This document shows, one piece after another, positions 3,316 to 5,918 of a stretch of DNA of 40,606 nt. Position numbers and translations under genes: made by a program. The notes beneath the pieces are model-generated. The model saw only the letters and a program-made list of their open reading frames with translations. It searched no databases and was not told where the DNA came from. Numbering within the stretch: the first letter of the stretch is position 1; the number at the start of each line of letters is the position of its first letter. This stretch comes from Pedosphaera sp. (GTDB taxonomy: Bacteria; Verrucomicrobiota; Verrucomicrobiia; Limisphaerales; SIBE01), in assembly GCA_009695265.1 (NCBI GenBank), contig SIBE01000006.1, forward strand, positions 1-40,606, written 5' to 3'.

Positions 3316-4476
3316 ATGTCAGTGAGCAGCGATATTAAATCTCAGACGTTTGAAGAGTTGCTGTCCCAGTTTCAAGCCTGGGACCAACCCGCTTATCGGG
3401 CCTCTCAGTTGTTGGAATGGCTCTATGTCCACCGCGTTGCTAGTTGGGATGCGATGAGCAATCTTCCCAAGGCATTAAGGGATCGACTTCGGCACCATTA
3501 TTCTCACAACGTTTTGGAGTTAGTCCGCAAACAGGGATCTCGCGACACGACGCAAAAATTTCTCTGGAAGCTGAGTGACCAGTCGTTGATCGAAAGCGTC
3601 TTGATACCAGCCAGCCCGGCTTTATACGGTGAACCAAGCGATCGCCACACTCTTTGTGTTTCCACGCAAGTGGGGTGTGCTTATGGTTGTAAATTTTGCG
3701 CGAGCGGACTGGACGGTTGGAAGCGCAACCTTGGCGTGGAGGAAATCGTCGAGCAAGTAATGGCGGTCGAACGCTGGGATGCCACGGAAGATCCGACGAG
3801 GCAAAATCCCCAGCCAAAATCCGAAACGATTTTTCCTGACGCCGATTCCAACTCTCCGCACGCAACTCTTCCACGCTTAATAAACAACCTTGTCATCATG
3901 GGAATGGGTGAGCCTCTCGCTAATTACGATAATTTGATGAGGGCCTTGGAGATTCTGAACGCGCCCTGGGGTGGGGGCATTGGAGCGCGTAAAATGACGA
4001 TCTCGACGAGCGGGTTGGCTCCTCAAATTCGCAAGCTCGCGGATGAGCCGCTTCAGTTCCGGCTCGCGATCTCTCTGCATGGCGCAACCGACGAGGTGCG
4101 GAGCAGAATCATGCCGGTCAACCGGAAGTACCCGCTTCATGAACTGACGTCCGCTTGTGAGTTCTACCAGATCAAAAAAGGACGAATGATAACGCTGGAA
4201 TACATTTTGATCGCCGGCGTGAACGACAGTTTAGATCAAGTGAAGCCGCTAGCGGAATTGGCTCACCGATTAAACGCAAAGGTGAATTTGATTCCGTACA
4301 ACAACGTTGATGGGCTTGATTGGGAACGCCCGAGCGAAGATGTTCAGGAGCGATTTGCTGCCGCCCTGGTGAATTCGAAAGTGACGGCCACTTTAAGGCG
4401 AGAGAAAGGCCATGACATAGACGCCGCGTGTGGGCAGCTCCGCTTGAAAACAGAAAAGGAACGGAGGCAAGAGTAG
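3316..4476 (+). CDS. rlmN: 23S rRNA (adenine(2503)-C2)-methyltransferase, radical SAM
   Basis: CAYGCKFC cluster, MGMGEPLANYDNL, LAISLHGATDEVRSRIMPVNRKYPL, C-terminal GHDIDAACGQL. Confidence 0.95.
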   Translation: MSVSSDIKSQTFEELLSQFQAWDQPAYRASQLLEWLYVHRVASWDAMSNLPKALRDRLRHHYSHNVLELVRKQGSRDTTQKFLWKLSDQSLIESVLIPASPALYGEPSDRHTLCVSTQVGCAYGCKFCASGLDGWKRNLGVEEIVEQVMAVERWDATEDPTRQNPQPKSETIFPDADSNSPHATLPRLINNLVIMGMGEPLANYDNLMRALEILNAPWGGGIGARKMTISTSGLAPQIRKLADEPLQFRLAISLHGATDEVRSRIMPVNRKYPLHELTSACEFYQIKKGRMITLEYILIAGVNDSLDQVKPLAELAHRLNAKVNLIPYNNVDGLDWERPSEDVQERFAAALVNSKVTATLRREKGHDIDAACGQLRLKTEKERRQE

Positions 4477-4545
4477 CTTTTTTCTCGGAAAGAAAGGGAG
4501 TCGCCGATTAAATGAATTCTCATCTGCGCTCGTATGGAGCGCCGC

Positions 4546-4577
4546 TTTAGCCGGTCGCCACGTGAAAACCGGCTAAA
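4546..4577. repeat. REP-like imperfect-context palindrome (TTTAGCCGGT...ACCGGCTAAA)
   Basis: Perfect 10-bp arms with 12-nt loop in intergenic DNA. Confidence 0.6.
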
Positions 4578-4608
4578 TACCTGCCATAACGAGAATTGAT
4601 GCTGACTG

Positions 4609-4771
4609 CCCAAATCAGCGCGTAAGAATCACGCAGGCTGCTGAACACACGTTGATCATTGATACCTCAAATCTCATGCCAGTCTACAACATGTATGACA
4701 CGAGAAATCGCTGATCGCCGCCTTTACGCGTGGAATTTGCCACGCACAAAAATATTACGCGCTGATTTGGG
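4609..4771. mobile_element. 163-bp MITE-like non-autonomous element
   Basis: CCCAAATCAGCGCGTAA (4609-4625) and TTACGCGCTGATTTGGG (4755-4771) are perfect 17-bp inverted repeats. They are flanked by direct repeat TGACTG (4603-4608 / 4772-4777), which could be read as 8-bp TGACTGCC. No ORF inside. Confidence 0.7.
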
Positions 4772-4958
4772 TGACTGCCTTCGCGCTTGACAAGAACTTA
4801 ATTTCTCCAAGAATGCGGCACGTTTGATACGAAATCGTGCTCGGCATCTTCGCTTGAGTCCTCCGAAGCCGCGTTATCAAGTTGCCCAGACAGCCGAGAA
4901 GCCAGTCGATGCCGAACATTCGACTGGACCAATGTAGTCTCGAGAGAACGAATCAGCT

Positions 4959-5918
4959 ATGACGGATACAGCCTCAGAGTCCCCAGAAAAAATCTCTACA
5001 CAGGAGGGTTACGGGAAGATATGCGGGACGTTTATTTCAACCTGCGATAAATTTTTAGGAAGGCTTCAGACGTCCATTGAAGCTCTGGGCCCGGCCGGCT
5101 CGCCACCCTCTTTAACCGACGAGTTTCTAACACAGTTTTTGGTTGAATCCGATAGTTTTTCAAGCGCCTGTTGTCGAGAGTTAGCCACAATGATTCGCGC
5201 TTCCTCTACTCAACCAGAGGTTAGGGACACCTCAGAACCTGTTTTAGCCAAGCTGATCAGGAATCGATGTTTTGATCGAATTGATAGCGTGCTGCTTAAC
5301 TATCTCAATCTCCTCGAGCGGTTGAATATCAACCTCAGCCCAGTTCGTCCTCGGCTTGGAGACTCGAAGATACGCGATATTCTGTCGCTCCCAGCTTCTG
5401 GCAGCCAGCCTTCATCTGGAGGAGCCGGAGAGAAGCTTGCAGTAGGTGCAAAAGGCAAGTCGGCTGCGATCCTCAAGGTTTTGGAATATCTCGAAGAACT
5501 GGACAAACTTCCGCATGACCTTCTTGATTACGGGGCTCTGAAGCTTTTTCCAGCAGAGGCAGATTTCCGTTTGGAGAGCGAGTTTGTGCTCAAAGCGCAA
5601 GACGGCATTCAAGTCACTTACCAAGGAGTGCTGTCGGCCTTGGATCGTTTTGAAGAAGTGAAAAGAAAGCGCTGGGAGGATCAGAGAACTGCAGAGACAG
5701 CGAACGTCAAGGAAGCAGCCATGAATTCCCTGCTCAATACCAACGCCACGAAGACCGGCTATGGCTCTTTGGTGGTCGGCGGCGTTTGCGCAGTGCTTGT
5801 TTGGGTGGCATTCTCCAGCGGGATAGTGCATAAGTACGTAATGATCGGAGAGGGTGTGGTGGCGCTGACTGGAGTTATCTTCTTCTTCCGAGGTATAGCC
5901 AGCCTCACCAAAAGCTAA
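4959..5918 (+). CDS. Hypothetical protein with C-terminal two-helix membrane hairpin
   Basis: Long ORF; C-terminus GSLVVGGVCAVLVWVAFSSGIV / YVMIGEGVVALTGVIFFFRGIA hydrophobic; no recognised family. Confidence 0.75.
   Translation: MTDTASESPEKISTQEGYGKICGTFISTCDKFLGRLQTSIEALGPAGSPPSLTDEFLTQFLVESDSFSSACCRELATMIRASSTQPEVRDTSEPVLAKLIRNRCFDRIDSVLLNYLNLLERLNINLSPVRPRLGDSKIRDILSLPASGSQPSSGGAGEKLAVGAKGKSAAILKVLEYLEELDKLPHDLLDYGALKLFPAEADFRLESEFVLKAQDGIQVTYQGVLSALDRFEEVKRKRWEDQRTAETANVKEAAMNSLLNTNATKTGYGSLVVGGVCAVLVWVAFSSGIVHKYVMIGEGVVALTGVIFFFRGIASLTKS

Follow-up and report, generated by a model that had tools for sequence, protein, structure and literature searches.

A 163-bp MITE with 17-bp terminal inverted repeats, most likely moved by an IS1380-family transposase, downstream of an rlmN-like gene in Pedosphaera sp.

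Downstream of the stop codon of an RlmN-like gene (3316-4476, + strand; family assigned by reading of the translation) and upstream of a gene for a 319-aa, probably membrane-anchored protein (4959-5918, + strand), the stretch of Pedosphaera sp. DNA analyzed here (40,606 bp in all, referred to as the window) carries a short sequence bounded by long inverted repeats. The question raised by this locus is what the sequence is and which enzyme, if any, has moved it. A preliminary description made from the sequence alone had proposed a non-autonomous transposable element and left its parent family unnamed. With a probability of about 0.9, we conclude that positions 4609-4771 are a non-autonomous MITE with 17-bp terminal inverted repeats (TIRs) which is most likely moved by an IS1380-family transposase. 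Mobile elements of this kind are ordinary, and this one is first described here; within the portions of the literature open to our search, no IS1380-linked MITE was found in Verrucomicrobiota.

The element (163 bp, + strand) begins with the TIR CCCAAATCAGCGCGTAA at 4609-4625 (+ strand), which is matched perfectly by its inverted copy at 4755-4771 (- strand), as first described. The hexamer TGACTG adjoins both outer ends as the left (4603-4608, + strand) and right (4772-4777, + strand) copies of a target-site duplication. A simple calculation gives about 5e-4 as the chance number of perfect inverted pairs of 17 bp, both arms lying within 200 bp, in 40.6 kb of DNA. The left TIR is followed by G, a feature also of related IS1380 elements at their right end (the transposase 3' side), while the inward neighbor of the right TIR is TATTTTT, and the left ends of IS1380 elements are likewise followed by AT-rich sequence. 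An open reading frame scan of 4609-4771 returned no frame of at least 80 aa, in line with the earlier statement that the element is non-coding, and its length places it among MITEs as these are delimited by size (less than about 600 bp with terminal inverted repeats). The interior holds an imperfect dyad, TCTCATGCCAGTCTACAACATGTATGACACGAGA, at 4672-4705 and a small hairpin, GCGTGG-AATTTG-CCACGC, already noted earlier and now placed exactly at 4728-4745 (no strand assigned to either). The hairpin is largely retained in other copies, and the dyad is the best-conserved inner part when the element in its own genome is compared with the copy in a congener (G001). Plasmid and phage searches with the element found nothing.

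The preliminary description had proposed a search for additional copies flanked by other repeats. The whole source assembly (153 contigs totalling 3.1 Mb; completeness 61%) was searched and returned seven full-length copies, each of 163 bp and the window copy included. Identity to the window copy is 95-97% for the remaining six, and pairs among the seven differ at 3-9 of 163 sites. The mean divergence of 4% suggests a spread within the species lineage some time ago and no very recent burst. A single copy of the seven, at C8:871-1033, lies on the opposite strand. Distinct 5-bp duplications flank six of the copies (GGAAT, TGTGT, AGCAT, GATCT, GTTAT and CGAGT), whereas that of the window copy is 6 bp long, a difference which we counted against the main reading. 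The earlier uncertainty as to whether the flanking repeat should be read as TGACTG or as TGACTGCC was settled by the other copies, which give CCC...GGG as the element ends (CCT in one copy). Beyond the source genome, a copy was found only in G001 among 58 genomes searched; it is 78% identical and flanked by ACCCGG (6 bp), and lies on contig C229, whereas the orthologue of the window site lies on C138, so that the two are different loci.

Empty sites, also proposed earlier as a check, were found in the same congener. There, the region between rlmN and the 319-aa reading frame can be aligned to the left and to the right of the insertion point (96% and 92% identity, the former on the rlmN side), the element is absent, and TGACTGCC, with its single TGACTG, is present once, which further supports the borders. 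For the copies at C73 and C148:22381, the joined flanks align without gaps to G001 (169/178 and 171/180 positions), where a single CGAGT or GGAAT is found. Three orthologous sites, that of the window included, are thus empty with one target copy each, which demonstrates insertion and fixes the borders of the element. Copies, varied duplications and empty sites all agree with the proposal of a non-autonomous transposable element. As a separate observation, a second dispersed palindromic repeat, GCTTTAGCCGGTCGCCACGTGAAAACCGGCTAAA, lies just upstream of the MITE at 4544-4577; its 18-bp core occurs at 9 places in the source genome with at most 2 mismatches (reversed control, none), and the repeat is also present at the orthologous site in G001.

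To identify relatives of the ends, related genomes were searched with CCCAAATCNNCGCGTAA, a degenerate form of the TIR, at one mismatch and with reversed patterns as controls. The TIR class, CCCAAATCNNCGC[G/C]TAA, occurs in multiple copies in many genomes of the order while the reversed controls were nearly silent, and class-wide the exact pattern was matched in 15 of 286 genomes and by none of the controls. In many cases the match is 50-150 bp away from the end of its contig, as is expected of repeated ISs, which break assemblies; repeats such as ISs tend to drop out at contig ends. Several TIRs were located a few hundred bases past the 3' terminus of a transposase gene of IS1380 type, and a scan for such transposases led to full-length ISs of 1.76-1.79 kb with the TIR class at both ends, the last of the checks proposed at the outset. 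Their ends read CCCT[GA]ATC... on the left and CCCAAAT...TAAG on the right. One of these elements (L160, 1772 bp) is flanked by a 6-bp duplication, CGCACG. No recognizable duplication flanks the other three of the four (L162, 1785 bp; L163, 1762 bp; L164, 1766 bp), and this too was counted against the main reading. Family assignment was by NCBIfam NF033539 at a cut-off of 180, and all three elements tested scored above it (L160, 211.5; L163, 187.5; L164, 196.6).

Remnants of such elements are present closer to the MITE. An IS1380-type right-end relic in the congener (G001:C5) carries a TIR identical to that of the element at 17/17 positions, and two right-end relics were found in the source genome. 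One, at C70:13975-13991, has the end of a transposase (FELPTQATAF) some 245 bp further in; the other, at C61:14831, is close to the end of its contig. No complete IS1380 element with the TIR class and no PF13701 match was found in the source assembly, which is 61% complete. TIRs aside, the MITE interior showed no significant similarity to the available IS ends; the best match (z about 2) was to the left end of L164, at about the matching position. Duplications of 5 bp are described for the IS1380 elements ISEcp1 (PMC12589106) and IS1247 (PMC3281130), and the 5-6 bp seen here, with 6 bp at L160, fit this family. Since both ends and duplication length match, the IS1380 family fits, and it is most likely the parent family that the preliminary description had not named. 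The TIRs of the element would most likely be recognized by a DDE transposase of the IS1380 family whose gene lies in a separate IS; this enzyme would then excise or copy the 163 bp, and reinsertion at a staggered cut would produce the 5- or 6-bp target duplication. Action of the transposase in trans is what the ends and duplications point to, and the element itself may have originated through internal deletion of an IS1380 element.

A transposase of another family, such as that of an IS4-family element in the same genome, could instead have moved the MITE, although we consider this unlikely. In the source genome, just one sizeable transposase gene was found next to a TIR-like sequence. It is of the IS4 family (contig C54; L020 1462-2619, running off the contig end and above the cut-off of NF033592); the sequence agrees with the TIR at 15 of 17 positions, and the gene was the first-choice parent. 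However, the matching 17-mer is part of the transposase coding frame itself, and CTAATGCCATTCGGTAATT, found upstream of the gene, recurs beside the copy in a relative and is the likely terminal sequence of the IS4 element, so that the match is probably due to chance; reversed-pattern controls likewise gave 8 matches at up to 3 mismatches. This candidate was dropped, the TIR class being found instead at both ends of IS1380 elements. An IS1634-like gene in the congener (G001:C159, L089; family by reading) lies within an IS1380 relic and is not the owner of the TIR; the gene is broken by frameshifts or stops. PF13701 matches in relatives (L138-L143) were set aside because their ends differ, being like CTAAAAACGGCAGTT, and they form a separate transposon group in the same relatives. 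It was also observed that records titled Akkermansia muciniphila (L158-L161, L167) apparently derive from other verrucomicrobial MAGs, one of them matching G001, and that these titles look wrong.

Highly improbable is another reading, in which the sequence is a conserved structured RNA or serves the rlmN locus as a regulatory element, with inverted repeats that stem from folding and not from transposition. It would agree with the intergenic location and with a predicted RNA fold far stabler than shuffles (z = -5.8, with the TIRs mainly the source of this stability), but as an origin it is refuted by seven copies at unrelated loci, each with its own duplication and one in opposite orientation, by empty orthologous sites in G001 and by an Rfam search of the element without a match, and with it falls the single-copy structured RNA that the preliminary description had named as the contrary outcome. 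Individual copies may have acquired a regulatory role afterwards.

Further MITEs bounded by the same TIR class were obtained from a scan of fetched loci in related genomes. These comprised a 133-bp MITE in G041 (duplication AGCTT), 163-bp MITEs in G003 (CCACC and AGGGA) and G006 (CCTGT), a 186-bp MITE in G017 (CCGTGG) and a 187-bp MITE in G036 (GAAACG, CTGGA and TGTGA). A genome from another order of the class, G090, gave 66 exact TIR-pattern matches and a 249-bp element with TCCCC on both sides; loci L188-L193 of this genome hold MITE-like elements of about 250-300 bp, in an apparent burst. When the interiors of MITEs from different genera were compared, their likeness was at most suggestive, and the internal dyad was weakly echoed in other MITEs. 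A final G was present in 5/5 of the 6-bp duplications and in 0/13 of the 5-bp ones, although these numbers are small; the 6-bp duplications that end in G next to CCC are those at L001, L029, L042, L066 and L160.

From these features two conjectures follow, which we jointly regard as unlikely. The internal dyad, lying approximately where the promoter of an IS transposase would be expected, may owe its conservation to binding of the transposase or of a host regulator, so that the MITEs would serve as decoys or would spread regulatory sites. Because all five 6-bp duplications and none of the thirteen 5-bp ones end in G, this IS1380 group may also select a 5- or 6-bp stagger by the target base.

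The analysis supplies a likely parent family for a MITE from a group that has received little study, and a single TIR class is shown to join IS1380 elements to several MITEs that look unrelated, in the order and outside it. Knowledge of this class aids annotation and accounts for many contig breaks in such assemblies; concepts are left unchanged by the finding. With respect to known systems, REP/BIME-type palindromic repeats are, like the element, short, palindromic, intergenic and multi-copy, but they are not defined by long TIRs, by target duplications or by empty sites, all of which are present here. A likeness in form is found with type I MITEs such as MITEPye1 of Paracoccus yeei, whose TIRs are of IS1182 type (PMC11578231); these are similarly small, with TIRs and target duplications, without a transposase and mostly intergenic, and they too have ends in common with an IS family. 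In contrast to the present element, the partner of MITEPye1 is IS1182 and not IS1380, its host belongs to a different phylum, and 1-3 copies are present per chromosome (PMC11578231) as against seven here. In comparison with the IS1380 family itself (ISEcp1, IS1247, ISPme1), the element differs in having no transposase gene, in its length of 163 bp versus about 1.77 kb, and in an interior without detectable similarity to available IS ends, while it has in common with verrucomicrobial IS1380 elements both the TIR class and duplications of 5-6 bp.
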